Origin: Turritopsis dohrnii
Lineage: Eukaryota; Cnidaria; Hydrozoa; Anthoathecata; Oceaniidae
Length of the DNA: 64,000 nucleotides
Assembly: GCA_027922465.2 (NCBI GenBank)
Contig: BQMF02000366.1
Span: forward strand, 248,001-312,000
Reading direction: 5' to 3'
Positions 9,621 through 56,133 of this stretch are shown one piece after another. Numbering within the stretch: position 1 is the stretch's first letter; every line of letters starts with the position of its first letter. The position numbers and the translations under genes are program-made. A model generated the notes under the pieces. The model was given only the letters and a program-made list of their open reading frames with translations, had not been told where the DNA came from and searched no databases.

Positions 9621-9740
9621 CACCCTATTCGGTAAACTGTAAACGATATCTATCGGAATACGCTGGCTAGCGGAGATCGATAGTTCCCGGTTACGCTTAT
9701 GCTCCACAGCTCCAGAGATAGCGGAGTGCGATTAAAATCG
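9621..9740 (+). repeat. Left terminal inverted repeat of the KDZ element
   Basis: About 120 bp, matching the reverse complement of 30787-30906 (shared blocks CACCCTATTCGGTAA, CGCTGGCTAGCGGAGATCGA, ATAGCGGAGTGCGAT). The pseudokinase start codon lies only 60 bases inside it, so the promoter or 5' UTR of that gene probably lies in or next to the repeat. Confidence 0.85.
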
Positions 9741-9799
9741 CTTCAAGTTATGATTTAGTGTAGACCGTGCTAGCATAATAATGACAACATCGATGTAAA

Positions 9800-12700
9800 A
9801 TGGCGGAGGCGGAAGCGAGTAGCCAAGTAGCTGATGAAGAGGCAATAAGCATGCAACCTGAAGCTAGAGAATTTTTGGAAAACAAATTTGAAGGTCTTTC
9901 TTTATCATTAAGTGTCTAGTTTGATGTTTTTTATTAATCATCATATCGAATGCTGAGATACAAGGCAGTTTTACATGCTCCCCTTCTTTTTTCTCTAATT
10001 AATAGTGCACTGTGAATTTATTGCATATATAAAGCAGTACAGTAATAAGAAAAATGTAGTAAGGAAATCACTTTCTGTTTTCTAGTGGTGTTTTCTAGTG
10101 ACGTAGCTCTGTACCTATATAGGTTTTCTCTTATCTAAATTGCAGCAACACCAACTGACTCTGGAGTTCTACCTACTACAACAGCTTCCTACTGTAGTCT
10201 ATATAAAGTGTGTTTCCTATGTGCTGTAAATAAAACCTCCCTCTATATATATGAATTTTGTGTGATGTGCACAAGGGTATATAGAAATAAAACTACACTT
10301 TACGAAGTTATAAACTCACATGTTTCCTAAATGTATATAAATCAGCTATATATTATGTGAATTGTAAACATCTCTACAATAATATGAGATGGTCTGCCTC
10401 TTGTGTTGCCTATGGTTGTTATGGATGTAGTAGGCTTAATTGCCCCACCTTTTTACATGTCTCATCCAATAATCAACAAAAAATAAGCTGCAGCTATTTA
10501 TAAATTTTAAGCAATTCGGCCATTATTTGTATATAAATGTCAACCAAAGTTCTGAGTTTTCAAATTTGTTTATGGTCAAATTTTATGATATTTTTGGGAA
10601 GAAGAATCCCTATACTTTCAAGTTCTAAACAATTTAATTGCAAAGAAGCTCCAGAAATATTTTTACATGGGCTTTAACAACAGGCACTTTTTCATCTTTA
10701 TGAATTGGAAAAAAGGACAAATTTGGTAGTGTGAGAAGAATATTGATCAACTTTGTGTTTGCTGCACATTATTTCATGTCAAATAAATTGGGACAGTAGT
10801 TTGAATTCCTAAAATGAAAGCCAAATTAGTGTTATTTGACCAAAATACTCCATATTTTATGTCATGTCACGTCACGTCACATTTTAAGACAATCTTATTA
10901 ATAAATTTTGAAATAATAGTACTATCTTGCTCAAATTAAAATTTCAAAGCCAAAAAGTACCCATCTAAAGGTCTTTTGAAAGTTCTTCTCAATCTTCTTT
11001 TTTGACCTAGTTAAACTTTTGTTATGTCACCTCACGTTTAATAAAAAGTTTAATACCTGTATGGTATTATTTGCTGCAACACTCAAAAATAGAGACATTG
11101 CCATTCTAATGTTCCATATCAGGTATACAAATTTAATAAATTCTAAATACAATGGTTTTTACCACCTAAGTTAACTGTTAGTCTTTTTCAATATTTGTGT
11201 CCTCAGAGGGTTCACTGTGTGAAGGAAGATTTTATAAGAAAACAGTGTCGAAAGTTTCACATTGAAGAAATCATTTTTGGGCTCTATAGAGCTTTTCAAT
11301 CAAAGAATTTTTATTTTACTTGCTAACTTGGTTGCTAACTAGGGTAAGGTTTTTGGTGCTCTTTGCAACACCATCCCCACTTTTAACACAAATTGGTCCA
11401 GATGGCAAAAAAAATGTTTTTGGAAGTATAGATAAGACATTATCTATTTCTGACTTAATTGTTGTTTCTTATCTTTAGTACCTTTGTTTCTCTAGCATTT
11501 AGTAAATATCAAGCTTCATGGATTTTAATTTCTCTTGTCTTTTTTTCTTTTTTTATTGCTTTCAGGATCCCAGGCTATCTTGGATGGGTAAAAGTTAAAG
11601 AAAAATATAATATTTTTTCAATTCCAACTAATAAAGGTTCAAATCATGTTTAAATCAAAATTTAAGAGTAATTTATTTTGAAATAGCCAGCTATTGCGTT
11701 TACTTGTCTTTATACTGTGCACTATGTTACGTCACATCACACGAAAATACGTCACGTCACACAAATTATTTTTTATGTTGTGTTTCATGATAAGAGGTAA
11801 TCTGCACAAATTTTGGTTCTGAACACTCACCAGTCTATGTTGTTACCCAAAACTAACATTTAAAGTCAATTGAGCGGCTCAATTCACACCATTAACATGC
11901 ATGTTTGGAAAAAAAGTGTTTCTGCAAATTACGTCATGTCGCGCCTTTGCTTTAGCTTGTTTTCAAATGGAGAGGCAGTATAAAAAAGATTCTTTTTGCC
12001 AAAAAGTTTCATGCCTTGAGTCCTAATATTGACTAAAAGGATATAGTCAAAACTACATTTCCCTTTGCACCATTAACTCTTAAAGTCTTCATGTTTTGTC
12101 ACATCACATGGAATAATGGCCGAATTGCTATATGTTTCACTTGTTAACATTCTCCAAGTATTGATGTATATGTGATGGATGAGTTTCCAATTGATGCTAT
12201 GTTTTTTATATAATACATATCATATATAATATAAAGGACAGTAATCTTGAAGTGTTTAGAACAAAACAAAACAACTCAATATAGGTATATGCAGTAATAA
12301 TCAATGAAAGAATATATATATTTGGTTCACAGGAGGAAGCCCTTTAATTAAAAAAATTCTTGTTAAATTTAATTTCTTTCGAAATACTACATAATATTTT
12401 GCATATGCAAAATCACAATAGGTAGTAACTTCATTATTATCCATGGAGCGAAAAAACTTCAAAATTTCTTGAATTTTCTCAACAAACATTTTAATAATAT
12501 TGGTAGAAAAAAATCACTCTTTTCAGGGCTTACAGCAATCAATAAAATGTAAAGAATTTTCAGGGAAGTTTGGAGCTGCATCATGGATTTTCAGTGATAA
12601 GGGAATATTCAAGGGTTGAATCTGCCCTTTCAGTTTGAATAACACATGGACACATTCTCCAAATGTTGTTATAGTTTACAAACAGTCTATGTAAGTCACT

Positions 12701-15700
12701 TCTATATCCAAATGTGAAAAGTATAATTATATATATATATATTATGTGAAAACGTTTGAAGGTTTAACTGCTTTAGTTAAAATTGTTTCAACAATTTTAG
12801 GTATTTACATGTATACACATTGTATATTCAGGTTAATTATCAGTCTATTCTGATAGAGGAGAGTGAATTGAGTTAAAATATATTCCTAATTATGTATATG
12901 TGATTCAAACTATTACTGTAGATTTTTTTTAGGCTTTATTATAAGAACAGGACCCTCAGATTTGGCCAAAAGATAAGAATGTAAACTAACAAAAATTAAA
13001 ACAGAATTTTCTTGTAAAAAGAAGCTATTGGTTATCATCACAAGCTATTGAAAAGTGATTTTTAGAAGTATATTGTTTTTAACTTTTTCATCTTCAATAA
13101 ATAAGTGAAAAAATATTATTGATGGCCTGATTTAAACCTGTTACAAAAGTATTAGCATTTTTCCATCTAACATGATAACAGTTTGTTTCAATGTTTTTTT
13201 ACTATCATCCTTTTGTAGAAATCATGTTTTGGAATTTTGTAAATTCTATTCTAGTATACTTTGCAAAAACGTTTGCTTGATATTGTATCATAAACGTGCT
13301 GTTTTTTATATAGCCTAAGTATTGATTTGTCCGTCCGACATAAAACAAGTACTTTTGTAACAGACCCACAGTCATTATGAAATAGCTACCATGTTTAATA
13401 TGTATTTCATTTCCTACCATGTTTTGTTACAAATTAATTTGAATAATAATAAAGATGGACACCAGAACAAGAAAAGTTATAGATTTATTTTTATTTATCA
13501 AAAGTTCCATAAAAACAAAATGAGACACAAAAATGTAAAAGCAAGAATAAATTAAGAACAATCCAGGCTGAAAAAGCTTCAAAATATAAGACCCCCCCAG
13601 CCTTAGGTGAGAATTTATTGGTTCTTATAACAGGTTTGTATGTGGAAAGTATATTATGTGCTTTTATCAATTTTTGTATGAAATAAGATATAAATAATAA
13701 GACGTATCTGTGAATAAACATAAATGATTTATTTTAAGCATTTACTTTTAAAAAAGATATGTTGGAAATTGGTTTATAAGAAGTGAGAGATTCAATTGTC
13801 TTTTCTGTCTTGTGGACAAAAACATTTGCTGACTGTTTAGTGAAAATGTTTCCTGCTATATATGACATTGTTTAATTATTTTATAAACCATCACTCACTC
13901 TCTGTGTATCTTCGTCTATTACTAGGTTGCACCCTTTGATGTTTTTAGTTCATTTCAAGGGTGCTTGTTTCTTCAAACAAATGTCACAAAACAATATTAT
14001 GTTATCCAGTCTAACAAGTCAATGTTAAACTATTTTGGCTCATGTATTGGCTGCAACATTTGACACTCCGGACATTTCAATAATAAATGATAAAATATTA
14101 TCTGACTTTTTATATAGCTTTAAAAGAAGGGAATAATAATGTTGATACATGTAAAGTGCAGGACTGTTCTAGAAAATCTGTATTATGTTTGTGTAACAAT
14201 TCCAGGCCATCAACCTTGGTAAAAACTCACATCAAAGGTTTCAAAGGAATAAGGCAAAAGTTGTTTTTGTAAACTCAATCACACACAAAGAACATAATTT
14301 TAGATAGTCCGGGGGTTTTTAGATGAGTTATGTGACAGACGGCTTTATTGCGTTTTCATTATAGTTCTCACGTTTCATTATAAAGTTAGGATTTCCAAAA
14401 GCTTCTATTTCACAGCCATCCAATGAGATGCTTTTTTCATAATCCTTAAATATAGTTGCATTCTTCCATTGATAAAAACTACTGGCTTTATAGACAGATC
14501 TATACAATCTTCATTTTGTCATTATCATGACTGATTTTTTAAATTTAGTGCCACATGAAGGTTTAAAATTTTGTGACTTGCTATTGCTTTTAGATCCTAC
14601 CAGAAAAAATGTCCTATCAATTTTGAGAAAGCTTTTGTCTCAAGGGATTTATGCTACTTTTTTATTCAATTTTTCAACATCGTTAAGGTTTTTTGAAAAT
14701 TTTGATTTAAGTGATTCTGTACCAACCATCTGCAATTGAGGTATTAATTCCTACCTTTTGTATAAACGTATGAAGAAAAACAGAATAAAACCTCCTTGCA
14801 TAATTCATTTGTCTTCTTTCATGTCTTTTGTTCAACAGATGTGTGGAAGGAAATCAAGGTTGCTGTAACTCCAGTATTGTCCGGAAAGTCACAACGTAAA
14901 CGTAAAGTTATGAACAGAATAAGGGAAAATCTCCAGGTAGGTAACCTTTAAGTTTTCACACTTAACTCTTTAGTCATTTAGCAGACTCATATAATTATTA
15001 CTGACAGAGAAAAGTTAGACGACTTGTGGGGACAGATATGAGTCAAGACGAGTTATTGCTCCATATTCAAACTGATTTGAATGAAAGATTTAACGTAAGT
15101 TGAATCATTCTTGTTCTTTCTGTCACACACTAAAATACTATCATGTACCGTATGATCACCGAACCGTTAGTGCACCGTTAGTGCACTCGCACTCTCAGAA
15201 AATTTCAGGCGCAACGTCTTCCACATGTTCACGCGAAAATCACTCTGTAATTTTCATAGGGCTCCGATCAACAAAACTTTTCTAATTTCTTACGAAATTA
15301 GCCTATCTTGATAAGATCAATAAGTATATTACTATGTGCTTATTCTTAGGAGTAACAGACTGCGCTGATTGTTAAATTAAAAAGTTTTTTCTTTTTCAGG
15401 TTGATTTAAAATTCGACCTTTCAAGTGCACCATTAGCTATAGTAAATGAAACCTATTCTCCTGAGGCAAGTATAGGATTTAATTTTTTCTAAATATTTTC
15501 ACTCACGTATAAAGTTTATTTTCTTTCTTTTGGCTGTAGGCTGGTTTTGGAGAATCAACCCTTGCTATAGATGGAGATGACGCATCCATTTGTACTCAAG
15601 CATGTGTAAGTGCTATTCCATTGATTTTTGGTACTGATTTAACACCATGTATTTTTTCTTTTGTACCGTTACTTTCCTGGTTTCTGTTCTGTCGGTCCAT

Positions 15701-16778
15701 TATTGTTTAGAATACAAGCAAACTAAAGGTCATAGGATGTGGATACAGACAAACTAAGGAGAACGAATTGTTAGAACGTTTGGAGGAATCCGAGAGTAAA
15801 GTTGAACATTTGAAAAGTGTCAATGCAGCTCTGGTTCATAAAGTACACGTACTTAAAGAGAAAAATGCGTCATTGTTACTCCGAAATGCCCATTTTACTA
15901 AACTGAAATTAACAGAGCAGTTAGGGCTGCGACGGTCAATGTGTGTAGTTGATGAGTCAATATTTTCTCATCATTTTCATACGGGAGACGCTATCCTGCA
16001 AGATCAAAATCCAGTAGTTTTGAATTCAAATTTCGTGGCGACGCTCTGTATCCAAGATTTAAGAAAAGGATCCTTTGCGTCTGTTAAAAAGGCTACTTTT
16101 GATGATGGTGATAGCATCATTTTGAAACATTTCATTGACGACAAGATGTCACCAGTGTTCAATAACTTACACTTTATCAGTCACGAGCACAGAATTTTAA
16201 AATTTCTTGGAGATCACGCAAACATTGTTAAGAGTATTGGCGTGGTGCACCTTCACGACTCTTTTTATTCTGTTTTAACATTTGTTCAAGGCATAACATT
16301 CGATGAAGCTATCCGTGGAATTAATTGTGTCAAAGCCAGAAGTTTGCTGAGTGGTATTGCGAAAGGTCTTAGTCATCTTCATGAACATGGAGTTCTTCAT
16401 AACCACCTGTCATCAAGCAACGTTATTGTGCAGGCTACTGATTTTCCCGTGATTATCGGGTTCTCCTTCGCATGCCGTGCTGTCTGCGTTCGGAAAAACT
16501 GTTTTGATGCAATACAGAAATTTGATCGACAAGACCATTTTGCCCCGGAACTCTATCATGGTTCCCCTGTATCGTATGCATCAGATGTATACAGTTATGG
16601 GCGTCTGCTGCAGCTAGTGTATCGACGCAGGTTCCCACTCAGTGAGAGTACTCGCAGTAAAATGGAAGGATTTGTGGTACAGTGCATGGACTCACGTCCA
16701 GAGTACCGAACACCAGCTCAACTCATCAACAAGCTGATAAACAAACTTTTTGCTTTTGACATGGAGAATAGCAGGTGA
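9800..16778 (+). CDS. Transposon-borne pseudokinase, 492 aa, 6 exons
   Basis: Exons 9800-9893, 14839-14936, 15008-15094, 15400-15465, 15540-15605 and 15711-16778 join without a stop and in matching phase. Intron 4 starts with GC (CCTGAG/gcaagt), the usual minor GC-AG form. Residues 1-140 are acidic then strongly basic (KSQRKRKVMNRIR) and unrecognised. Residues ~157-206 look like a coiled coil. A protein-kinase fold follows: glycine loop RKGSFASVKKA (~255-265), beta-3 lysine in IILKHF (~276), the catalytic loop changed from HRD to HNH (~367-369) with the later Asn kept (SSSN, ~374), DFG replaced by GFS (~387-389), then FAPELY (~414-419) and DVYSYG intact. Both catalytic aspartates are lost, so it should be a pseudokinase, possibly binding ATP or a partner. 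It opens the left side of the KDZ element. Its role in transposition is unknown. Confidence 0.85.
10510..12129. mobile_element. 1.6-kb TIR element in intron 1, rich in ACGTCAC motifs
   Basis: The ends AGCAATTCGGCCATTATT and its reverse complement (12112-12129) form an 18-bp TIR. The interior holds no gene. It does hold clustered TCACGTCACGTCAC-like words near 10860, 11025, 11745, 11930 and 12095, which resemble CRE half-sites (TGACG). It is probably a non-autonomous DNA transposon that landed in the first intron of the pseudokinase gene. Confidence 0.6.
12130..14838. other. Remainder of pseudokinase intron 1, no gene seen
   Basis: AT-rich intronic sequence with a short (TA)n run near 12730. 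Small open frames (for example 14527-14739) lack splice context or recognisable motifs. The intron ends at the acceptor ttcaacag (14838). Confidence 0.6.
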
Positions 16779-16804
16779 TTTCGTTTTGTTTATATATATA
16801 CCTA

Positions 16805-17188
16805 CAGTTGACTCTCTCTAATTCGAATTTCTACTATTCGAATCTTTCTATAATTCGAACGAAATCAAAATCACCATCAATTTTCCTTAAGAAGGTCTTA
16901 TAATTTACTTTCTACTTTTCCAATCTCTGTAATTCGAAATACCTCTATAATTCGAACAATTTGAACCTGAATTTTTGAGACCTGAATTTTTTCTGGTCTC
17001 CAAAGCGAAATTCTCTCTGTTATTCTAATTTTTGTCATCCAGAGTTTTGAATTTTTCCGATTCAGATTTGTCTCTCTAATTCGAATTTTCATCCTTTTTG
17101 CCTGAAAATTCGAATTAGGGAGGCTTTCTACTATTGGAATCTCTCTGAAATTATCTCCCTTGAGATTCGAATGAGAGAGAGTCAACTG
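16805..17188. mobile_element. Pogo/Tigger-like MITE
   Basis: The TIR is CAGTTGACTCTCTCT at the left and the exact reverse complement AGAGAGAGTCAACTG at the right. Both are flanked by TA, the target duplication of Tc1/mariner-type elements. The interior is full of AATTCGAA repeats, typical of pogo/Tigger MITEs. It lies 26 bases after the pseudokinase stop codon, so it may supply the gene's 3' UTR. Confidence 0.8.
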
Positions 17189-17771
17189 TAATTACTTAAA
17201 TTACATATTAACATTATGAGCTGCAAAAAATGAGTATCGTTTTATTACCCTCTTCCCAACTATAAAATAGATTTTTTGAATTTTACTCTTGATTTTGGAA
17301 GATACCTCGCAAGTACATTATTCGAAATTTATTTCTCTTTTCATGTTAACAAACCATCGATTGTATTCAAAAAAATGAGTTACAGAAGGCATTTTCTGTT
17401 TTTTATTTGATATGATAAGGTGATTAATGTGGTGATGAATAACTATGGCAATGCAATCCATGTTTCTTGTTTGTCTTGAACCACACTGTACCCATTCAAT
17501 CATCGCTTACTTACGTTTTTATGAAGGATTTGCTAGATATTGGAATAAATAAATGTAACAGTGACATTCGAAGAGCAAAAAGAATATCAATACCGATAAA
17601 TATGTAAATGATGCCTTGCAAGCAGTGGACAAATCGGTGCAAAATTGATTTATGATAGAGACGTTAATGAACTCACGGTAGCATGTCTTATACTCGTGAA
17701 AAAACGTAAAGGCCGTCTTACACTTCTGGAGAATTTTCTACCAAAAGAAGCGCTTTTTTTTGCTAATACAC

Positions 17772-17980
17772 CTTTCCCGAATTTCTGTTTAAATGCCGAG
17801 TTTTCAAGTTTAGCCTCGTTTCTATGTTTTTCATTGTTTTTCTAATTGCATAATGTTTAAGTAATAGTTACTCGTTCTTTCAATTCCAGTGGAATAATTA
17901 GAAGTAATTAAGAGTTTGAAAAAGAGGCGAAACTTAGAGGTTAGGCTATAACACGGCGTTTAAACAGAAATTCGGGAAAG
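17772..17980. mobile_element. 209-bp MITE (CTTTCCCGAATTTCTGTTTAAA)
   Basis: The ends read CTTTCCCGAATTTCTG and its exact reverse complement. The same family occurs at 22469-23024, with shared interior blocks (CGCCTCTTTTTCAAACTC, CTATTACTTAA). No coding capacity. Confidence 0.75.
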
Positions 17981-18199
17981 TCTATTCTTCTTCTGCTCTT
18001 TCCGTTCTTGTCCGGAAACTAGTTCCATTTTTTCTGTTGTTCCAAGCAGAAAAGAAATAAAACAATCAGGCTTAAATACTTTTTCTTTTCCGTTCCTATC
18101 GGCGTAAACAATTTCGAAAAATGGAAATCTGCCTTTAAAGTTAAAAAAGCTTGTCTGCAATTCTCAGTAGTATAATTTACCTGACTTATTTTAATAAAA

Positions 18200-21100
18200 T
18201 TACACTTTATTAAGAAAATAACATTCTAAGTCTGGTTTTGGTAGATTATCAGCGATTTCCCAGGTGCAAGTCTTATAGCCAATCCATTTTACCAAATATT
18301 GTTGCGACCCGTTTGATGTTTTTCGGTCTAAAATTTTTTCCACGAAACCTTCATCATTTCGAGATTTTTCCAAAACCTCACGAAGGGTGACAATCTTCCC
18401 TGCTTCATTTGGTACATTATCATCTATTCCTAGATTTTGAATATTTTTATCGAGATCTGCTCGCTCGATCTCATCAATAGCAATAGGGGATTTTTTCTTT
18501 GGTGGAGACTGTTCGTCACGAGTATTCTGATCGTCTACCATCATTTCAAAAGCAACTTCCATATTTTCACTATCAACCTGAGAAGCGGACGCAGGAGATT
18601 CCACAGCAGGTGCTGATGATATACCTATTTCTTTGGTGACTAGAAAGTAATTTCAAAACAAAAATTTCTCGGATCAGCAGTAATAATGAAGCATCGAGTA
18701 CACAAGAAAAGAACCTTAAGAATGCATAAATTTACCTGTGAATGTAATATAATCTATGTTTCCCCTAAGTATTTCCAGCTCTGTCTTTGAACAATTGCTG
18801 GGCTTTTTAAATGTGTATCCCACTGGAAGACCGCTGACTACTACTATCCCATCTTCGATTTGCTTATATGGCACTGTTGTCCGTCTTCCGCCAGTTGATA
18901 AATCTATGATATATTACAAACAAGGTTGAATATGCAAATATTTACATTCATACTGCTTCTTGCCATTAGACTGTTCATAGGGGGGGAAGGAGTTCGATTA
19001 ACGAGCAGACATTTCGACGCCTTACATGGTGAGATGTCGTCTGCCTAAAAGTTACTGTTGAAATTTCGCTGTATTCATATAAAAAAGGCTATCACTTTTT
19101 TTAGACGAGATCTCTGTATACAGGTTCATAATATTTTCTCACCAGATGAACGCAATTTCCTTTTCCCGTAGTTCATTTATCTTCGGAACACATAGCTCTA
19201 CAAATACCATTATCCAATGTATATTCAAATTAAATTGTTGTAGTTGTAGTATGTATCCGGGAGATAACTGAATTATGGGAACGGGAATTATGGGAAAATG
19301 GGAATTTTTACTTCGTGACGAAAATTTTCCCCGACGAAAAATTCCCCCCGATAAGATAATGAGTGAATATTGCTAAGTTATAAGAAATGTATTTTAGCGA
19401 AACAATAAAATGTATGGAAACTAGGCAAAACTTGATAGCAAGGCATTAACACGGTGTTAAAAGCAGAAGATTTATTGAACAGTCAAGTAGAATAACCGCA
19501 ATAAAAAGAAAAACATAGTTAATAAATGGAAATGCTTACAAATTTTTTGGTTTAGCAACTTGCTCACTTCTTTGCGTAAGTTTTTTGTTTCTTGAGTTGA
19601 TTGAACAGCTTCGCCTTAACATGGAATTACAGGATTTTAGCACGAGATGACACGAGTTGTTTTGATGTTGGTACTTACAAAGCGAGATATTAGTTTTTCA
19701 TATGGGATATTCTTTCCACATAAAGTTAAGCATTAATTATATATAAGTGAAAATCAGACAACCTAAACTTCTGTCGGTAAGAAGTCGTATGAAGTTTTTG
19801 ACATTTTTACCAGAGTAATTAGAATAGGATTTCGAATGTGATTTTCCTTTTTTTGAAACTTGCATTTAATTTTCAAATAGAGATCGACACAACTCTGATT
19901 CTTAGTAAAGATATTATTGTTACAAAAACTACATACCCATCACATGAGATGCGAAGCGCCATTCTAAATCATTTTGCGAATCCACAAAATCAATTCCCTT
20001 CTGGCTTCCGTATACAGTCACTTTATTTCCTTTCCTGTCAGGATCTATATCCATGATGACCACTTCTATACCCATAGTTTCCATTTCACGGCACTTACAA
20101 AAAAGATAGCAGTGATGAAATACCTTATCGGGGATAAAAAAGTCGGGAAAAGTGAGCAATTTTTTTTTTTTTTTTTTTTTTTTTGGGGGGGGGGGGAGGG
20201 GGGGGGGGGGGGGCTAAAATTTTCTCCCCCGACTTTTTTTTCCCCGATAAGGTATACAATAACTCAGACGTTATTGTAATATCTTGATTATGTTCTTCTT
20301 ATATTGAAAAGAACTAGTCAGGGAAAAGTGACTAATTTTAAAATTTAGTCGGTGAAAAGTGACTAATTTCAAAAATTGGTCGGGGAAAAGTGACTAAAAT
20401 TTCCTTAGGTGACTAAAATTTTTCACGACTAAAATTTTCCCAGACTAAATTTTTTACCACCTTTTTTTCCCTTATAAGGTATACATGGGTGTAGAAAAAT
20501 AAAAAAAACATTATATAACTATAATTAAATTAAATTCAAAAGAAGGACAATTTTAAGTTTTGAAGGGGCAGAAATACCAACCAAAGTTTCGATCTTGTTT
20601 CGTGTTTTGCGAATATGTGATAATTGTGCATCTGTTGGAAGACAACCAAACACAGGTTTTTCAACTTCCGCTGCTTCATTTTGATATTCTTTTTTTTCTT
20701 CATTGGACAGCGAACTCCAAGCATGATTGCTTTCTGCTATCCCTACACCATTTTCTAAGTTGAGATGCAATCAGAAAGAAATTGCTATTTCTAGAAAAAC
20801 TTAAAGAAGTTCTGCAAAATACTTTTTCCGTACTTCTTATTTTTGGTCCGTAACAAGGTTTAAAATTTCACTGAATCTAAACACACCTGTCATGTACTTC
20901 TTCCGGAAAATATCAAATCCTGAAGATCTTCTTCCCGGAATTTTTATTTGTTTGGCTTGCGGATTCTTTCTTCTTTTGCTATCAATCCAATCCTAATAGA
21001 TCACAATAAGAAAGTGATATTTCAAAAGTAACTAACCATTTCTGTTGGTAAATGAACCTAACCCTACTATCTTACTTTTATCTGCGATTCCTTCAATCCA

Positions 21101-21243
21101 GTTTGTACGATGGCATCTTGCAAAAGAGAACGTGCGGTTGTGTTATCAGCTTTATAATTAGTCATCCCCTTACTATAAAGAGTTTCTAAAGTCTTCACTT
21201 GTTCCGGAGTTTTCTTAGTATTTTTTCTTGGAAGCTCAGCCAT
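18200..21243 (-). CDS. Homeodomain-like / HMG-like / chromodomain protein, 428 aa
   Basis: Seven exons join in phase from ATG 21243 to a stop at 18200: 21076-21243, 20887-20992, 20582-20754, 19937-20093, 19540-19614, 18736-18903 and 18200-18639. Residues ~6-68 look like a divergent homeodomain whose helix 3 reads QIKDWIDSKRRKNP (Trp58, basic run), with an intron inside the helix. Residues ~79-119 resemble half of an HMG box (GFDIFRKKY... WSSLSNEEKKEYQNEA). A middle segment contains a conserved-looking VVIMDIDPD block, then a coiled coil (~250-272). Residues 379-428 are a chromodomain (FVEKIL, QYLVKWIGY, CTWEIADNL) keeping the aromatic-cage positions Phe381, Trp401 and Trp409, so it may read methylated histone tails. 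An acidic and Pro-Lys linker precedes it (SPPKKKSPI). It lies between pseudokinase and transposase inside the KDZ element. Role inferred: DNA or chromatin targeting. Confidence 0.8.
20120..20255. mobile_element. MITE around a poly-T/poly-G run
   Basis: ATACCTTATCGGGGA at the left and TCCCCGATAAGGTAT at the right are perfect inverted repeats, with GTCGGG/CCCGAC just inside. Between them is ~55 bases of T followed by G (20161-20213), probably a slippage-prone or poorly called stretch. It lies inside an intron of the chromodomain gene. Confidence 0.65.
20256..20485. repeat. Degenerate GTCGGGGAAAAGTGACTAA repeats
   Basis: Four or more copies of a word like GTCGG(G/T)GAAAAGTGACTAA occur on both strands. 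They end in TTATAAGGTATA, which matches the TIR of the neighbouring MITE. It is probably a second, decayed member of the same family. Intronic. Confidence 0.5.
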
Positions 21244-21399
21244 ACTGTCAACATTAACTTAATCTGAAAAAACGCAGATTTTTAACAATAAAAGATGTCT
21301 GACTAGCATTTTTAAGTCTACTTGTACGACTCTGCCAAGCTTATAAAAACCTTTTCACCACGGATAAACTAGGGTTAGAATCATTCATTTGGATGTCCA

Positions 21400-21612
21400 A
21401 AGTCATGTCAAGATCACGAAAAGCTCGACCCGATCTACCAGAGATAATGTCAGAACTCTTACGTAAAATGACCCGAACTTTGGTATGATATCATTTGCTC
21501 GTGGCATGTTTCCACACAATATAAAGTAAAGCCATGTCAAAATCACGAAAAGCTCGACCCGATCTACCAGAGATATGTCAGAACTTTCACGCGAAATGAC
21601 CCGAACTTTAGC
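21400..21612. repeat. Tandem duplication, ~83-bp unit
   Basis: The block containing ATCACGAAAAGCTCGACCCG and GATCTACCAGAGAT occurs at 21400-21482 and again at 21529-21612, about 93% alike, with unrelated sequence between. It lies just upstream of the chromodomain gene start, so it could hold promoter elements; that is inference only. Confidence 0.65.
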
Positions 21613-21769
21613 GAATTGACATTGCGCAGTTAAGGTCGGAAATCATATCAGTCATTTCTACAATCCTCATTTCTCACATCATACATAGTAGACTCCTTTT
21701 GAATCAAAGTTGTCTTGAAATACGAACGGGTAGTGGACAATGAACAACCATTTTAATGTTATTCATAAT

Positions 21770-21860
21770 ACAAGTACAAAATTTAGAAAACGCATAAAAA
21801 TTAGAAGTAATAATACAAGTACAAAATTTAAAAAACGCATAAAAATTAGAAGTAATGTTG
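21770..21860. repeat. Two tandem 45-bp units
   Basis: AATACAAGTACAAAATTTA followed by an AACGCATAAAAATTAGAA block occurs twice back to back with one difference. It lies in the spacer between the KDZ transposase and the chromodomain gene. Confidence 0.7.
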
Positions 21861-22468
21861 CTAGATGCTTATTCAGTTGAGTTGTTTCTGTTAATATATA
21901 CAGACTAGTAACCCAGGTAAAATTTTTTACCGAGTTTAACTTCGAAAAGGATGTGTAATATTCGCTTTTCCCGTGAGTAAATCCTGTGTCGAAAAATTAA
22001 ATCACCGAATTGGAAACAATGGTTCCCCTGTGACGATAAAACAAAAAAAAACTGACGTCACACCAGGTGCTACTAATAATAATCGTAAAAAACCGCATGG
22101 CCTAACGAAAAATATGACCACGATTAAGAAGATTTTGACCGTAAAATTCAATAAAATTTATCACTCTCTAAAATAAAAGTGTGATGGCCATAAAGAGCAG
22201 GACGACATCAAACCGAGCTAAGGCTGACTGATACCCAGAGAAGATAGATTCAACTTTTTGTCTACTCCTCTACTTGCCCCTGACAATGTTGGCAGAGGCA
22301 AGATTTGCCCAGTTAGTGAGTACCCGATCTAATGGCGAGCACTCACCACTGGAGTCTACAGTCGGAAACATACCGTATTGCCCCGAAATAAAGCCAAGCG
22401 ACCTATATCCGGATTCTTTTTGCGATTTGGATATTTCCGTTTAGAAAATCTCTTCCATACACAATAGA

Positions 22469-23024
22469 CCTTTTCCGAATTTCTGTTTAAACACCGTGTT
22501 ATAGCCTAGCCTCTAAGTTTCGCCTCTTTTCAAACTCTAACTTACTTGTAATTAGTCCACTGGTGAATTGAAATAACAATTGGCTATTACTTAAGGCTGA
22601 AATACATTATCATTTAAATGGATCAGTTTAATTTTTTTTATGACGATTTTGCCCACTGGGACTTCATTTCTATTTAATTTGCCATGTGAGTATGTTCATG
22701 TGTCAAATTGCAACCATTACATTTAAACGGTGAAAGCACTTACAAATATGTTTGAACAAATCAGGCTAAGCCCGACCCTTACCCTCACTAACCCAGACAC
22801 ATTTCACAAGGTCTACACCGTAAAGTCTAATGGTTGCAATTTGACACACGAACCATATGATGTATCACGTTTCCTTTTATTTAAAAAAAATTTAAACTGA
22901 TCATTTAAATGATAATGTATTTCAGACTTTACTGGAAACATTATAAAATTAGAAAAACAATAAAAAACAGAAACGAGGCGAAACTTGGTATTAACGCGGC
23001 ATTTAAACAGAAATTCGGGAAAGG
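22469..23024. mobile_element. MITE of the 17772 family, interrupted by a second MITE
   Basis: The outer ends are CCTTTTCCGAATTTCTG and its near reverse complement. After removal of the inner element (22595-22927) about 220 bases remain, and these align with the 209-bp copy at 17772-17980 across the break (CTATTACTTAA / ACATTAT). It ends 49 bases from the transposase stop codon. Confidence 0.7.
22595..22927. mobile_element. Inner 333-bp MITE (GGCTGAAATACATTATC)
   Basis: The ends read G(G/T)CTGAAATACATTATCATT in inverted orientation. A second inner inverted pair (TGTCAAATTGCAACCATTA and its complement) lies inside. Flanks TTAA and TTTA suggest a 4-base target duplication now differing by one base. 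Confidence 0.65.
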
Positions 23025-23072
23025 TGTATAGGTTAACTATAAAGTATGGCGTATCAACATAAAAAAGTACGT

Positions 23073-26000
23073 CTATTCGTTTAAGTCAACATCAGAATCA
23101 TCAGATGAACTGTCGGTGAAGTAACAGACGTCAAAGTCATCATCTAGTTCTTTGTTTAGCGCACCTTTAAACAATTCAGTCACCTCTTGTAGGATCGAAT
23201 CTTGTTCACTTAACTTCGAGTGAATAAATACTTTCATCGGACCCTCAATGTGACCCAACAACTCAGAAAGCATTGCAGATGATTCCTGAAAGTATTTTTT
23301 GGTGTTATCCATTTCTGAATATACCAGTGACTGTTCTTCAATCGCACGACATTTACGAATATAACTCTGTATCAGGCTAGCTTTGATAGTGGCTGGAACA
23401 TTTAATGTAGAGGTTTCCTAAATATTAATGATATGAAAAAGTACTGTTAGAAATAAATTTTGTACCACATTTTCCTTTCAGTCTGAACTATCTTACATGT
23501 GGTGTCAAAACATCCAAATATATTTGTGCATTAACATCTAGCACGTCCTTGTACGATATGATACGCGGGGAAGTTACACACTGCTTTCTGTCCTCGTTTA
23601 AGCATTCAACAAGGGACTTCATTTCGCTACATATCCTATTGATCTGCTTAGACACCCTCGCACAAATTGATGAACCATCTATGAAAGAAAAGGCTATGGC
23701 TAATGTAATTTAGAAAAACATCAAACTGTTGTTTTCGAACAAAATCTCAAAATATTGTGAGTATATTGAAAATCATTTAAAAGGAACCTGCATATCTTTT
23801 CTTTAACGATAAAAGCATCATTCTCTCTGACGCTCTGCAATGCAAAGTTTCCAAGACTTGCTTAATGTTTCGTTCAAGAAACTTGTGATGTTGCACTTGG
23901 TAATTTCGAGAACTTGCTTTCCACCGCGATGTTACACCTTGGTTGCGCTCAAAGACCAAAAGAGATGCTTCACATCTATGTAATATACAAGAGACATCAA
24001 TTTATTGGACAGCAATGTTTATAAGACATATTAAGTGATGCTTTATAAAATGACAATGGCCATTTTCTATACCGTCTTATTTTCGATTTACGTTTAGCAA
24101 TGTCAGTAATGTTTCCACTTATTGCCAACAACGATGTTTCCTTATAAAATTGTTTTAAATGATTATAGTAAGTCCATTCCCAACCATCGTCTAAAATATA
24201 CAAAATTTTGGATTGGATTTGCAATGACACAGTCATGGAATTGTTTCACAAAATTTCACACCTTGAGTAATAACATATTTCCATTTCACTTTTGACTCTT
24301 CTTCGTTTTTCCATGCCCTCAACAAATCATCAGTTACGCAGACTAGTGCATCAAAATGAACATAATAACATGCATAATGACAGTTATAGATAATAAAACA
24401 GATAATGGAATATTCTTACCATCAAGCCCAGTAGACAATGATCCTATTTCTTCTACGCTGGTTTGATATATGGCATTTGCCTTTTGGTACCAACTAACAA
24501 GAGTTTTCCCTAAAAAGAAACTTTTTCATTATCATAAAGATACAATTTGCCAAGAAAACTGTATTGACTTTCTAAAATTATAATAATGAAAGGTAAAAAT
24601 GAATGGACCCATACCTATTGTTAAAACTTTAGTCTTTTTAAAATGGTTCAACGCATCACACAAAAAATCAGTGCGGTGAGCAGGAGTCATTTCTTTCGTT
24701 ATTTTTGAAAATGACCGCAAATAAGACCATAATCTTTCCATTAGTTCCCCATCCATGAGCCCAAAGCCATTCAATCGGCGGATAGAGTTCTCTACCTGAA
24801 GTCAAAGCATTTTATCTTTATTGCAAAACTATCAAATCATAGCTATTTAAAATAACCGTAATACACACCTGACAATCACCTTTGTGGCCATAAGAATGAA
24901 AAACTGGAATTCCAAGTGTAAAAGATGAATAGTTGTCTAAAGTGCCCTTTTTCTGAAATTAGAAGAGGAAATCATGCATTACAAAATAATGAATTTCAAA
25001 TATAAAATCTATCGTATTTCCATCATATAATATAATGTATAGAGTGTAGCTACTGCCGCAAGGAAAATCTTGATGGTCACTTACTTTTAAGATAATTGTC
25101 TCGTATGTCATGTCATGTTAGCTGTTTATGTCAACATCAGTCAGTCAGTGGAAAACAAGAAAGGCTTTGACTATGAAACAAATATTTAAGACGTTTTGAG
25201 AATAGCGCATCAGAGAAATAGAACTAACAGTTTTTATACCATGAGATGTCTTTTCAGAACACAAGCAATATCGTAAATAACATGAGCATTGATATTTTTT
25301 CCAGAAATTTCTCTCTGAATCTGATTCATCATCATTACACTGTATCCCAATCTTCAAGGAAAAAGAAATATAGAAACTGATAATGCTAGGTGCATACTTT
25401 AAACAAGAAAAGATAATTATATGGGTTCACTTTACAGTAAACCACAAACCAGGTACCTTTCTCCATTTCGCATGTTAAGAAAACACTTTGGAATTTCATG
25501 TCTACAAGATACACCAAAAACACCAGTCACACTCAATTTGGTATTCTTTCTTTTAGATCGAATGTGATTTGCAGCCTGAAAGTTGTTGCAATCCTAAGAA
25601 TGGATAAACATCTTTTACAGCAAATCAATAATTTTGACATGCATATTGAGAGCAATCAAAACTTGCAGCCTTACCTTGTCTAAATGTTTATCATCATAAG
25701 AAGCCATAAATTCTGTAACTTCTTCATCAGGAATGAATAATTTTCGGTCATCAGATGCTGACACAGTAGAATTAGATGCTGCATTTTTCAAAACAAGTCC
25801 AAAGTTTGCATCCATACAATAATATACATTTCCATTATCCTGAATTCAAATTTCAGTTCAGAATGCACTTCTCATTCATAAAACAATCAGACCTTTATAA
25901 AATATCAGGGAAATTTGAAGATATTTATGCTAACCTTTGGGCAAGCAGGGCAGATGTAATCATTCCCAGCAGCTTTCGAGACCCATATCTCTTTTAGGTG

Positions 26001-27721
26001 ACGTTGAAACAGTCGATATTGATCAAGGGAATCAGTTTGAATAAAGCGTGTAAAAACCCTTTTCTAAGAACGAATATTTAACAAGAATACAAAAAATACC
26101 TGAGCAAGAAAATTCTAACATTAGATGTGTCAAGAACATTCATTAATCACTGACAGCATAAACTACCATTCCATAAGGAAAAATAACCATACATATAACA
26201 AGTATAATTTAATCACAACATACCAATGAAGAGTTATGCACACCAGTTTTCCATGACAATCCATCTATGAATGACGTGAAAGAGATTTTTCCTTCAAACT
26301 GCAACGAAACCAGTGTGTCAAGGAGGCGCATTGAAACAGCTGTCGATGGTTTGGTTGGTGTTGATGGCCACAGATCATACTTAACAAGTGTTGCCATTTC
26401 TGATTCACATGCACAAAAACAAATATCTGTCTGTTTGATAACACCTAAAGGAAAGACACAAAATTACAATTAGAGAAACATCTCTCCAAAAGAAGTGCTC
26501 CTTTGACAAATAAATCTTTTAGAGCTGTACGCTATATGAATGAGACACTAATTATGAAAATTTTTAATTGTTTCACTTCCTCAATGCAACCTGTGTCACT
26601 TGATAATGGTTTATAAAATTTACCTGTTTCAGAGACAATAGTAATTGAACGCCAGTAACCTTTGCTGCATATAGAAAAATGTGGACTTGTCAATCTGCTC
26701 TGAAAGCTGTACGGTTCAACTATGAAGTTAGCCTATGAGAGTTAACAAACTAGTTGAAATGATCTGATGGCATGATTTCGTAACAGTGATTTAAAAGTAC
26801 TTCAATAGACATATGATAATTTTGTAATTTTCAAGAGCATAACCTGAGAGAAATGTTTTTGTTGAGTAAAGGATGAACTTAAGCCATTGACATTTACCAA
26901 ATTGTTTAATCAAATATGCCATTTTTTTTAAAAAAAAATTGTCCTTCTTAATCGTGTTGGAGTATTCACCAAATTGTTTGGGAAGAAACAAACACACATG
27001 TCTCAGGAAAAGTTCTTAACTTCCTGGATAGGACATAGTATAAAAATAAAAGTAGAATGTCTCACTAAGAGAAAACATCTACACTTGATATTTTAGGTGG
27101 CAAAAAGTTTTCACTATGTGTTCATAGAAGGGGCATAAGATCAAAAGAATTTTTTGATCATTTTAACATCTAATTAATTTTAATATCTTATTTATTATGA
27201 TAATTTGTTGTTTTTGGAGAACAGAAGTGAAGTATACATACCGTCAATTGAATGGCTTCATGAAATGGAAAGTTTGAGTGTGCTTGATCCGCACATTCTT
27301 CACAGTATGTGGATAATGGGCCACAATCATAACAGCAAATGCAAGCATCTTGAAAACCATTACCACAAATTATGCAATTACATGCGAGGAGCATTTCATA
27401 TTTTGATGCATATTTCTGACATATAGATTCTTGCTCAACTTCCCAGGAACCAAGCTCCTTCTCCTTAATCAATTCATATCCACGTTTTTTTACTGTATTA
27501 CCACTTACCAAATATTCTAATATATTGTGCTCTTCACAATCAAATTCTATTGCTCCAGTGGAACACGAAGTGCTTGGAATATCTGAAGCAACTTCAGAGG
27601 CCCCTGAATTTAATGTGGCAGGAGAATGAGAGCTCAAAGATTTATAAAAGGTTTTGGTTTTACCATGACGAAGAGTTGAACGTACTACTCTTGCACCTTT
27701 TTTTGACTTTCCAAATGGCAT
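23073..27721 (-). CDS. KDZ transposase, 873 aa, 15 exons, intact
   Basis: The exons, read on the minus strand, are 27242-27721, 26624-26732, 26224-26444, 25935-26063, 25675-25839, 25457-25593, 25240-25351, 24869-24952, 24615-24795, 24420-24509, 24262-24342, 24073-24190, 23788-23975, 23497-23678 and 23073-23417. All introns are GT-AG, every phase fits and the only stop is the final TAG. Residues ~114-155 form a Cys/His cluster (CNCIICG, CICCYDCG, CEECADQAH) of the CxC zinc type found in KDZ proteins. KDZ signatures follow: LVKYDLWPSTPTKPSTA, CPACP, MDANFGLV (candidate catalytic Asp323), a CRHEIPKCFLNM block, YDIACVLKRHL (Asp441), PVFHSYGHKGDCQ (~467-479) and GFGLMDGELMERLWSYLR (Glu496/Glu499). 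The C terminus is acidic. Role: cut-and-paste transposase of the surrounding element. A 5' UTR exon may lie near the right TIR, 3 kb upstream. Nothing in the frame suggests decay. Confidence 0.93.
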
Positions 27722-30700
27722 CGTCTACGATTAAAATGTTCCTATAATAACAATTACTCATCAAATAATACTTTGCAAAGTTTCCATGCATTAGATATCA
27801 TTGCAATAATAACTGAGCAGGGAACACTAATTTTCTCTATCATTCCAAACCATGGGAGATAAAGATTAGATCATAGCTAGTTTTGCCATATAAAACATAA
27901 AAAAATATGCAGTAATAACAAACAAGCATTAATTCAGAAATAAAATCTCCAGAATTGTACTTCCCACCCTAACATATCAATGGCTACTTTTATTTTTATT
28001 ATTTCTTCCATTACAGTTTTTACTTGTTTTATAATTTCTAAGCAATAAATGTTTATATATAAAATATTTTGTGCACTATATGATTTCTTACAAGGCGGCG
28101 TCGCTTGCCACCCATGTTCAGCCTGCGTTGTTTCACCCAAAGAGTTCAGGAAAAATAAAATTCAAGGAAAAGTTAATGATGTCATAGAGCCCCTGACCCC
28201 AAAAGTTTTTCCCGACATTTTCCCAATTTTAGTTTAGGAAACAATGTGTTTAAATCCTGTAAAAAATGTTTGAAATGATTGTAAACTTTTCTTAAAAATT
28301 ATACACCCAAATGAAAAAAGCCAATTGCTCTGTCTTTATAACTCTTCTTCCTTTTCTCATCCCTCTCATCTGTCTTTATAACTGTTCTTCCTTTTCTCAA
28401 CTTGTAGCTTTCTGCCTAGTAGTGGCTTCGGACTTGCAGGGAGCAACTCATTTAAAAAAAAAAAAAAAGGTGACAAACCTGAATCTATTTTCCTAAGATA
28501 AATTAGTTTTTAGGTGTTTACTCGACCCAGGAGCTGAACCGCATAAAAACACACAAATAACTTTGCCCTGTAGAAACCAAGCATCAAAATAATAAATAAC
28601 TTGAACGATTACCTATAGTCTGTTCAAAAAATATGTGCACTAATTTCAGTTACCATGAGGAAACCAGATTTAACAAATTACATAAATTCCCTTGAGCCTG
28701 GTTTTTATATAAAAGCTGAAATCAGTGCATATAATTTATGAACAGACTTTAGTTTTAACCAAAAACATAAATGCATGCGTGTAGCCTTGTGTAAAAAATT
28801 TTTTACGGTTTCAAAATTACTTTCAAAACTGGAGACGTGAAACACAACCAAACATTGAAACACTTAAAATGCTATACTATTGATGGAAAACACATTTAAG
28901 ATGAAAAGTAAATTTTACAAAATGCAAACAAAAACATAACTCAAAACTAACTATATATAAACGCATGTGCGTCAGGTTCTAATCTAGAATGGAAGGGCAG
29001 TGCCCGGCAGAAGGAAAAAGGGAGCATGATGAACATCCAAAGGGCACTTCAGGCCTTAGGAAAAGGGCAACCTGAGCTTTATTTCGGTGGGTTAAACCTG
29101 TGATCCCCCTATACAAGAGTGCTTTTTGAAGTTTTTAAAGCGAAATAAATTTAAAAAAAAAAGAACATAGTAAAGAAGTACTCATCTATTATTTACTATG
29201 TAATGTAGATGTTGAACTGAAATAACAAGATATTTACAAATAATGTCAGTGGGAGTGCTACACATAGAGGGCAGCGTCCGATCAACGGACGCTTTTTCGG
29301 CCTAGATTAGACCCTGTGCATACAGGATATATCGTGTGTAAAAACATTTAATAGGTTCACTAACACTGGAGCTAAACCAAATAAAGGTTTTCTAAAATAT
29401 TTTTTACTCTGAAAACGGCCAGTGACGGAAATCATGTTTTCAATATTCAGAGGATTTAACATTATAAACAAATAGCAATATAACACAGAACTATATGTAT
29501 ACTCAGGCATACAAAAGGAAAATTAGCAGTATTAAATTAATTGAAACAAATCGATACCCTCCAACTGTTCTTTTGTGTCAAAGTTATGTTGGACAGAATT
29601 TTCAAAATAAATAACCAGCCATAAACATAATTCATGATTTTAAACCATGAGTTTAATCTCTTCATTGTTATTATAGTTTTTATATATTTCGTTTGTCTAA
29701 AAGAAAAAAGATTTCAAATATATGATACAGAAAATGATATATACATGACGACATTGAAAGAAAAACAAAACAAACTAAAACAAAGCTCGAGAACGCCTTA
29801 CCTTAAAAATAAGAATAAAAAAAACCAACAAAATTAATGATAGAATTTGTATATATAGCTAAAGATTGGAGTCCAACATCAACCTGTAATTGTGTGTGAG
29901 TCTGAGTCTCAAGCAGCAAATTAACAATAAGAACATTATAAAAAAAGTCAGACATGAGTGATGAGATGAGGCAGGGCAATATTGGGCAAGTGAGAGCTTA
30001 GATTTTCATGGAAAGAGCCAGCCATAACACATTTGTGAGCTTCTTCATAGCTCTTGCAAATGAAAACATTCACATCTGGGGAACCATTTTTATTCAAATC
30101 CTACTACCTTGGCTAACTCATCATAACACACAGCAATAATAAACAACCTTTTTATTCTTCATTCAGCTACCCATCACTGTGTTCTAACTAAAATACATAT
30201 TAGTTTAAATGTAGTTTTGACTACAAACAAAAAAGATATCTTTACTTTAGATACTACACACCATAAGTAAACAACATCGCTCATTCTTAATCATCATAAT
30301 ATACTTAATTTAAATGACGCACGAAAACAAGAAAACAAAGATTTGTAAAGTGTTTGTGATTTAAAAGCAAAAATGTAAACATCCATCATAGATGAGAGAT
30401 AAGAATTATATATAAGTATAAGTGGAATATTTAATTCAAGGTCAAAATAGTTAAATTGCTCAGGCAGCAGCAGAGAGGAGAACAACAACAAAACATATAT
30501 CACTGAATGAATGGAAGTATAACTGGATGGATAATTAATCCAAAAAGCTCTTGCAAATATAGATGCTGTCATTAAAACAAAGTTTACAAACACAAGAATT
30601 TGTTGCCCTTTTGTCAAATCAATCAATTCATCTATGCCTATATTTTCCTTCTTTTAAATTTAATTTTGTTTGCCAAAAAAGCACATGTATGTGCGTTGCC

Positions 30701-30786
30701 ATTTTAAAATGCTTCCCGCGTTGTACTTTTTGTTGGTGCGGGATGATGAGACAGGTTTAAATTTACAGGAGAAATGAACTGCTTAC
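27722..30786. other. Transposase 5' region, no gene recognised
   Basis: Three kilobases between the transposase start codon and the right TIR. I see AT-rich sequence, a 40-bp tandem pair near 28330-28400 (TGTCTTTATAACT...TTCCTTTTCTCA), one MITE (28617-28748) and a perfect small hairpin at 29273-29292 (AGCGTCCG/CGGACGCT) followed by T5. It probably holds a 5' UTR intron of the transposase gene; that is inference from the promoter-like position of the left TIR. Confidence 0.5.
28617..28748. mobile_element. 132-bp MITE (AGTCTGTTCA)
   Basis: The ends AGTCTGTTCAAAAAATATGT and the reverse complement of the right end agree over about 30 bases with a few differences, including the inner GCACTAATTTCAG. 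A short hairpin-type element without coding capacity. Confidence 0.65.
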
Positions 30787-30906
30787 GATTTTTATCGCAC
30801 TCCGCTATCTATGGAGCTATGGAGCATAAGCGTAAACCAATAATTATCGATCTCCGCTAGCCAGCGTATTCCGATAGATATCGTTTACAGCTTACCGAAT
30901 AGGGTG
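30787..30906 (-). repeat. Right terminal inverted repeat of the KDZ element
   Basis: Reverse complement of 9621-9740 with about 90% or better identity by eye. The outermost bases CCGAATAGGGTG end at 30906. The next base begins a fragment of an integrase gene, so this end has a sharp boundary with foreign coding sequence. Confidence 0.85.
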
Positions 30907-30907
30907 A

Positions 30908-31276
30908 ATGGTAATCGGTAACTCATTGCACTTAGAATGCGCATGGTTCGTATTCTCTGCTTTAATTCAACACGAACTTGACGAAGTTATGAAACTTTGG
31001 AACTCACATTACATCCGCCGATCTAGACATGATACTATCCCAGGCCGACCTGAGGAACTCTTTTTTCTCCCTGAATTACGTGGATATCTTAACTGTAAGC
31101 GTGCAGTAAGCGTAGAACAAGTAAACCAGGTCTTAACAGAGAACGACTTTCTCGATTGGGCGGAGGATGCAATAGAAGAACATGATGAAGAACTAAGTGA
31201 ATATTTTATCTATCTTGTTAACGAGCTAAATCTTATTCACCCGCCTAACAATTGGAATAGTGGTAGAAATTTATAA
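30908..31276 (+). pseudogene. 3' fragment of an RVE-type integrase gene
   Basis: A 122-codon frame starts two bases after the KDZ TIR; a TGA at 30905-30907 closes the frame upstream. The pattern LECAWFVFSALIQHELDEV, LWNSHYIRRSRHDT, GRPEELFFLPEL matches the C-terminal part of the animal 'integrase core' proteins (RVE/DDE type) common in cnidarians and fish. The catalytic part is absent. I found no matching upstream portion beyond the left TIR at 9620, so either the other half was lost or the two sides were never contiguous. It is convergent with the HECT gene. Confidence 0.65.
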
Positions 31277-31844
31277 TTAGAACTCATATCACATGCTGTT
31301 TAAAGATAGTGGAAAGTATTTCGTGGTACGTTGCGGGAATTGAAGATGAATAGGAAAAGTTTATAAAGCAACGAAATCGTCTTTTTTAACAAAACAAAAG
31401 AAACGTCATAAGTATAGCACAACAACAAACAACTCAACTTGTAGGATAAAATTATCTTATGAGCTATAAAAAGTGACTTGTTATTGTATTATACATCAGA
31501 ATTAGTTTTTCACTTTAGGAGACTGATAAAATGTGGATCTTAACCAATAACAAAACTCAACTTTTGTAGTAGAAATTTCGTCACTCATAGCTATTTTTAC
31601 AGAATTTACTTTTATGATTTAGGGCCAAAATTTCTTTTACAAAAATATCTCCCCTTAAAGTATATACATACAGGCTTATAAAAGATCAACTTAAGCAAAC
31701 AAAAATATCAAGTGGAAGTACAAACAACACAAAATGGTAACAAAATCCAAGCTTATTTTCAAAAAAAGAAACTAAAAATGTACTTAGTGAAATAACATAA
31801 GTAAAAATATCATTCAGATAAGTTTGAAGAAATATAAACAATGT
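31277..31844. other. Convergent 3' spacer, nothing recognised
   Basis: AT-rich sequence between the ends of the integrase fragment and the HECT gene. It is likely to contain their polyadenylation regions. No open frame or repeat of note. Confidence 0.5.
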
Positions 31845-56076: not shown

Positions 56077-56133
56077 TTTGAAATTTTTTTCACGAAAAGT
56101 AAATATAAATATTATTTCTTCTTACAAAATTTT

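Follow-up and report, generated by a model that had tools for sequence, protein, structure and literature searches.

The window analysed here, a 64,000-nucleotide stretch of the Turritopsis dohrnii genome (C366:248001-312000; C-numbers denote contigs of the searched genome, 436 Mb in 891 contigs), harbours three spliced genes, encoding a pseudokinase, a chromatin reader and a KDZ transposase, which lie between a pair of terminal inverted repeats (TIRs). Positions 9621-30906 are a copy of a large KDZ DNA transposon, complete from TIR to TIR, as judged from the TIRs themselves, the presence of multiple copies in the genome and the target site duplications (TSDs) found at other copies. Its main features are as follows.

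9621..9741, plus strand: left TIR, ~121 bp, beginning CACCCTATTCGGTAA
9800..16778, plus strand: pseudokinase gene, 492 amino acids, 6 exons (splicing; Pfam Pkinase 1.1e-22)
18200..21243, minus strand: chromatin-reader gene, 403 amino acids, 6 exons (splicing; Pfam and PDB profiles)
23073..27721, minus strand: KDZ transposase gene, 873 amino acids, 15 exons (splicing; PF18758, CxC2)
30786..30906, minus strand: right TIR, ~121 bp, ending TTACCGAATAGGGTG

The two TIRs (9621-9740 and 30786-30906) are 93–94% identical, matching in 112 of 122 aligned columns, and their blastn score is 175 bits, whereas no more than 35.6 bits was reached when the region was shuffled 20 times. The left TIR displays 97.5–99.2% identity to the five other young copies compared. 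These results agree with the first-pass annotation of this DNA, which had proposed matching inverted repeats of about 120 bp enclosing three multi-exon genes that are in frame without a stop. Gene models were obtained by region-wise prediction followed by splicing by hand, after which none of the three genes contained an internal stop; the exon counts first proposed were 6, 7 and 15, and those obtained here are 6, 6 and 15.

The transposase is encoded on the minus strand by exons 27721-27242, 26732-26624, 26444-26224, 26063-25935, 25839-25675, 25593-25457, 25351-25240, 24952-24869, 24795-24615, 24509-24420, 24342-24262, 24190-24073, 23975-23788, 23678-23497 and 23417-23073. Its assignment to KDZ, already made from the sequence alone together with a CxC cluster, is borne out by a KDZ domain (PF18758; 1.5e-45, 156 bits against a Pfam cut-off of 26.6) and an upstream CxC2 cluster (5.2e-11, 43.1 bits against a cut-off of 27). 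In an alignment of the window protein with eight relatives (one from Hydractinia, three from Clytia, those from Branchiostoma, Betta and Priapulus, and one further sequence), residues D323, D441 and E496, which we take to be candidate catalytic residues of KDZ, lie in the blocks D.NF, YDI and DGE..ERLW and are identical in 9/9 proteins.

The chromatin-reader gene comprises minus-strand exons 21243-21076, 20992-20887, 20754-20582, 20093-19937, 18903-18736 and 18639-18200, and its exon borders, as read from the alignment, are the same in the older element on C235 described below. The protein was first labelled homeodomain-like/chromodomain; the present analysis adds two modules, giving a predicted architecture of four modules (homeodomain-like, HMG-box-like, GTF2I repeat and HP1-type chromodomain), two of which are weakly supported. 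The window protein has a Pfam Chromo match (5.5e-9), and a profile built from it, its C235 counterpart and a Clytia relative matched the CBX1 chromodomain (1.3e-6), the GTF2IRD1 I-repeat (5.7e-6) and the yeast MAT-alpha2 homeodomain (4.7e-4) in PDB. Across these three members Pfam recognised GTF2I in 3/3, HMG_box_2 in 3/3 (weakly, best 0.0054), Chromo in 2/3 and Homeodomain in 2/3 (weakly, best 0.21). Since the window protein alone scores 25.9 bits for GTF2I against a cut-off of 27, and has a homeodomain E-value of 0.24, the GTF2I and homeodomain labels lean on the profile and the relatives. In the CBX1-profile alignment KWxGY retains its W and Y and the first position is shifted, at positions that we presume to form the aromatic cage. 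A genome search with Pfam GTF2I (16/16 candidates scored) returned two places, on C542 and C235, both over the cut-off and both inside these elements; the search missed other copies of the chromatin-reader gene, so its reach is limited and other host GTF2I repeats are possible.

The pseudokinase gene has plus-strand exons 9800-9893, 14839-14936, 15008-15094, 15400-15465, 15540-15605 and 15711-16778, with a GC donor after exon 15400-15465 that is kept in 6/6 other contig copies. It encodes a coiled coil followed by a kinase domain in which the VAIK-type lysine is retained, HRD is replaced by HNH and DFG by GFS, upholding its earlier designation as a pseudokinase. The motifs HNH and GF[ST]FACR are present in 5/5 sequences aligned (from the window, Hydractinia, Clytia and two others), and the distant relatives encoded in this genome on C61, C25, C284 and C695 display HNQ or NNN and [GS]FS.AC. 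The protein thus lacks both the HRD Asp and the DFG Asp that are catalytic in active protein kinases, a loss conserved in its relatives. In a tree of 13 rows, eight pseudokinases lie apart from five kinases with both Asp residues (support 94/96); the program flagged the outgroup rows for long branches and uneven composition. A profile search against PDB returned ordinary kinases, the best at 6.7e-17.

Counting its own, 28 matches to the left TIR occur in the genome, among them several facing pairs 20–25 kb apart, and copies with the same three genes were found at other loci, as the first-pass annotation had anticipated. The young family comprises six loci including that in the window. C351 and C501 are taken once in all locus counts as they represent a single locus (99.7% flank match, with C351 starting at the contig start). 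Near full-length alignments to the window element were obtained for C501, C305, C542 and C186 and partial alignments for C351 and C148, the last of which carries further insertions and was read up to a point short of its far end; aligned pieces of at least 300 bases are 96.5–99.4% identical, and the interior of the window copy is colinear with the other copies, insertions and deletions aside. At every end that was read the young copies terminate at the TIR, and the sequences flanking them are different on one side at least; a noncoding divergence of 0.7–1.3% points to recent spread of the family. C235 holds an older element, 20 kb from TIR to TIR, with both the transposase and the chromatin-reader gene, whose longer matching pieces are 74–83% identical to those of the window; C194 and C513 are further diverged copies. 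Right-end TIRs were also seen at C361:402163 and C521:116613, where within the 10 kb examined only about 655 bp are common with the window element and the flanks are 94% alike; these are perhaps shorter, non-autonomous relatives.

The element termini are CA..TG, and perfect 7-bp TSDs are present at three of the seven elements read at both ends (GCCTATG at C501, AAACCTC at C305 and CCCATGG at C235). An empty site, which had been suggested as a check on mobility, was found for C305: when the element and one duplication are removed, the resulting sequence matches over 314/314 bases (100%) at 13 top-scoring loci (40/178 candidates scored). This indicates a clean insertion of the C305 element into one copy of a repetitive sequence.

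The window copy itself has a less simple history, evident from its right flank.

30907..31600, plus strand: right flank, outside the element, a multicopy repeat piece with the end of an rva_4 integrase open reading frame (ORF) (Pfam; genome matches)

This repeat has 26 matches on 23 contigs, of which 18 outside the window cover 639–694 of its 694 bases at 93–99% identity, and in the window it is broken at GAATCA|AATGGTA. As the right flank lies in the repeat and the left flank differs from the sequence usually upstream of that repeat, the window copy either has recombined with another copy or is an assembly chimera. The second possibility, that this copy alone joins two KDZ insertions and does not represent a single insertion, is in our view evenly balanced: the copy has no TSD and the usual upstream sequence of the repeat is missing on its left, while C305 and C542 likewise have one flank in common (99.7%, the common flank being itself a repeat) and not the other. 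However, the interior of the window copy is colinear with other copies, and ectopic recombination between copies would look identical. Beyond the breakpoint, 30907-33512 holds this multicopy repeat with the end of the rva_4 integrase ORF, then an ORF of 555 amino acids on the opposite strand with a weak HECT match (E 0.083).

The three genes largely occur together in this genome, as far as the searches extended (87/142 pseudokinase, 57/57 chromatin-gene and 52/178 KDZ transposase candidates scored). Copies of the large pseudokinase exon at 99–100% identity were found on C366, C186, C351, C501, C148, C542 and C305 (where it is shortened), with a fragment at C178 accompanied by KDZ pieces; the remaining pseudokinase matches among candidates scored are only 23–29% identical. 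At C178:232417-237132 these pseudokinase and KDZ fragments have a palindromic arrangement, mirrored about the middle. Chromatin-gene matches occur at the same seven contig places as the pseudokinase, at C513, C235 and C194, and as two exon pieces at C145; transposase matches occur at the same seven places and at C235, C194, C547, C513 and C178. Of the places with chromatin-gene matches, 10/11 have a KDZ match on the same contig, with C145 as a possible exception, and no full-length chromatin gene was listed away from KDZ-bearing contigs. The closest protein relatives of the element genes are from Hydractinia and Clytia, with pseudokinase relatives in both. In Clytia, the chromatin-gene relative (P0001) and the pseudokinase relative (P0003) each have a single contig on record, in both cases with a length of 1,787,385, which suggests that the two are linked there as well.

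Comparison of the window and C235 elements gave a ratio of nonsynonymous to synonymous divergence (dN/dS) of 0.146 for the transposase (dS 0.69, 873 codons) and 0.154 for the chromatin gene (dS 0.67, 368/403 codons), with inserted columns of 6 and 12 bases excluded; the near-equal dS values fit a shared history of the two genes within one element. Among young copies (C351 excluded because it belongs to the C501 locus, and C148 also excluded for KDZ, where it was not read) there were 9 synonymous and 4 nonsynonymous changes in the transposase (5 copies, one-sided p 2.4e-4), and 15 synonymous and 10 nonsynonymous changes in the pseudokinase (6 copies, p 3.3e-5). In each of the five pairs formed with the window copy, coding sequence was less diverged than noncoding sequence (p ≤ 0.011). 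The earlier suggestion of selection on the whole unit thus holds among young copies for the transposase and the pseudokinase, and for the chromatin gene only at the depth of the C235 comparison.

We consider it very likely that this is a mobile KDZ element which carries its own transposase and two constrained accessory genes inside its TIRs, and propose the latter as regulators. Several observations weigh against this. No TSD flanks the window copy, C186, C542 or C405, four of the seven elements for which both ends were read. Within the portions read, only two of the six loci, those of the window copy and C501, have every one of the three frames open. In C305 the KDZ gene carries an insertion of 1 bp and has lost a splice acceptor, and the pseudokinase is truncated; the chromatin gene has stops or gaps in C186, C542 and C148, the last of which has also lost a pseudokinase splice acceptor, and gaps in C351, the contig that overlaps at the C501 locus. 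Among young copies the chromatin gene appears unconstrained, with 3 synonymous changes, 10 nonsynonymous changes and 2 stops (ratio 0.9, p 0.54), and its Clytia relative has no chromodomain. Two of its exon pieces, 83% identical, lie at C145:266798-267391 on a contig where neither KDZ nor TIR was listed. Finally, the pseudokinase is absent between the TIRs of C235, and must therefore be an optional part of the element.

Some of these points would be expected if the two extra genes were incidental captured cargo, comparable to that of Pack-MULEs, with no role in the life cycle of the element: the pseudokinase was lost from the C235 element or was never in it, and the chromatin gene has decayed in several young copies and is unconstrained among them. 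We judge this improbable, since the chromatin gene has nevertheless kept its order and exon structure with the transposase over a dS of about 0.67 with a dN/dS near that of the transposase, the pseudokinase is constrained among young copies, and the Clytia contigs on record for relatives of the two accessory genes are of identical length. The selection results thus weaken the passive-cargo view, least so for the pseudokinase given its absence from C235. It is highly improbable that the pseudokinase and chromatin genes are host genes caught by chance in a segmental duplication that included a KDZ gene: the assembly does contain duplicated contig ends (C501/C351), some flanks are repeats and the C145 pieces lie apart from any listed KDZ or TIR, but the copies break off at the TIRs wherever an end was read and differ in flanking sequence on at least one side, full-length chromatin genes were listed on KDZ-bearing contigs alone, and both TSDs and an empty site exist.

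Two further insertions lie within the element.

17766..17980, no strand assigned: small insertion resembling a miniature inverted-repeat transposable element (MITE), with its own inverted ends (inverted repeats)
22464..23029, no strand assigned: second MITE-like insertion of the same kind, in opposite orientation (inverted repeats)

The possibility that these repeats delimit a nested transposon around the chromatin gene was rejected, because each has its own inverted ends and because C235 keeps the chromatin gene in the same order beside KDZ. A near-palindrome is present in a noncoding part of the element at 28613-28752, with 55-bp arms (76%) and a 30-bp loop. Elsewhere in the window, identical ORF sets on opposite strands at 144-1979 and 5057-6892 are retroelement-like, and represent an inverted duplication or an assembly fold-back; we take them to be reverse-transcriptase-like with a GIY-YIG-like tail. 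A diverged pair of ORFs at 38168-39847 and 42997-44649 has what we presume to be a C2H2-like beginning together with an HxxRY block like that of tyrosine recombinases, and the large ORFs at 52906-56121 are presumably gag-pol-like, from a long terminal repeat (LTR) retroelement that by eye is BEL/Pao-like.

Distant relatives of the pseudokinase occur beside a different kind of integrase gene. Among the integrase candidates scored (150/1081, such that linkage at further loci may be missed), an rva_4 integrase lies 1.2–5.5 kb upstream of a distant pseudokinase, on the same strand, on C61, C104, C34, C284, C695, C399 and C291, or 7/47 distant loci, and on C25 an rva_4 integrase seen by ORF adjoins a distant pseudokinase. 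A loose test of linkage within 20 kb was not significant (7/47, P 0.18); it included all 47 distant pseudokinase loci and 20/150 integrase rows, the rest being checked by eye with none within 20 kb. A strict test (6 kb, same strand, fixed order), in which C61 and C104 were taken as one on account of their identical scores and spacing, gave 3/5 for integrases of at least 84% identity (P 3e-10, with C265 and C176 as misses) and 6/46 loci from the pseudokinase side (P 1.2e-6), P values that are descriptive as the 6-kb limit was set after the distances were seen. We infer that relatives of the pseudokinase may also be carried by a second, rva_4-integrase type of transposon. Some kilobases from the pseudokinase there is a HECT-like ORF at C61 (over the Pfam cut-off) and at C25 (below it); at these two loci pseudokinase, rva_4 integrase and HECT-like ORF may make up a three-gene transposon of another superfamily.

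The chromatin reader and pseudokinase most likely regulate the expression, silencing or targeting of the element itself. The transposase would bind the TIRs and move the element by cut and paste. The four-module protein would bind DNA via its homeodomain and HMG modules and methylated histone via its chromodomain, and may either relieve silencing of the chromatin of the element or steer the transposase to a particular chromatin type. The pseudokinase could act without catalysis, as a scaffold or decoy linking the element to the signalling or cell-cycle state of the host; alternatively it could compete with a host kinase of the silencing machinery. It may have been exchanged with, or inherited alongside, the unrelated rva_4-integrase lineage. 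More tentatively, at somewhat below an even chance, dead kinases may serve as a trans-acting transposon factor in hydrozoans, on at least two unrelated lineages (KDZ and rva_4-integrase), and in KDZ elements may act together with the four-module reader to defeat silencing or time transposition, in an animal parallel to the TET/JBP genes borne by fungal transposons.

The element resembles the KDZ superfamily (Kyakuja, Dileera and Zisupton) in its KDZ catalytic domain, CxC2, candidate D/D/E residues, TIRs, large size and accessory genes. Zisupton and a Dileera family have 8-bp TSDs, and two Kyakuja families have 7-bp TSDs and CA..TG termini (PMC12730594). By these descriptions the 7-bp TSDs of the window family set it apart from Zisupton and Dileera; the TSD length and CA..TG termini fit Kyakuja, whereas the 121-bp TIRs do not, as Kyakuja elements are described without TIRs. 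Fungi and algae are known to harbour giant KDZ elements that carry accessory genes (PMC12730594). Those of Ectocarpus and Chlamydomonas likewise exceed 10 kb, and those of Ectocarpus also have nested insertions and additional genes (PMC12477816), although in the part of that paper covered most accessory genes of the Ectocarpus giants have no known function and a pseudokinase is not described among them. Cryptococcus KDZ1 also exceeds 10 kb, but differs in its length of about 11 kb, 241-bp TIRs and 8-bp TSDs (PMC12810828). Fish Zisupton and the F-box/CxC7 proteins provide an example of an animal KDZ element with an extra non-transposase domain; however, there the F-box lies within the transposon protein or is fused to the KDZ zinc cluster (PMC12062965), whereas here there are two separate genes of other kinds.

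The closest parallel in kind to a shared accessory gene is that of fungal TET/JBP transposons, in which an epigenetic accessory gene occurs on several unrelated lineages, KDZ among them (Kojima 2025, PMC12730594); here, in contrast, the shared gene is a pseudokinase, the second gene encodes a histone and DNA reader, and the host is an animal. At the profile level the chromatin reader matches the I-repeats of GTF2I/GTF2IRD proteins and the chromodomains of HP1/CBX proteins, but combines them in one transposon-borne protein with homeodomain-like and HMG-like modules. No report of a transposon-borne pseudokinase or GTF2I-chromodomain protein was found in the open-licence literature, which was searched in part. 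Within that literature, a pseudokinase and a chromatin reader as KDZ accessory genes, and a pseudokinase common to unrelated transposons, look new.

The usual picture of an animal DNA transposon is that of two TIRs with a transposase in between. In the 20-kb element described here, a multi-domain chromatin reader is subject to the same selection as the transposase and is accompanied by a pseudokinase that has relatives beside the integrase of an unrelated type of transposon. Whether transposons of animals supply anti-silencing or signalling factors of their own thereby becomes a testable question in hydrozoans, some of which are workable in the laboratory, as does the further question of whether such factors are traded between transposon superfamilies.

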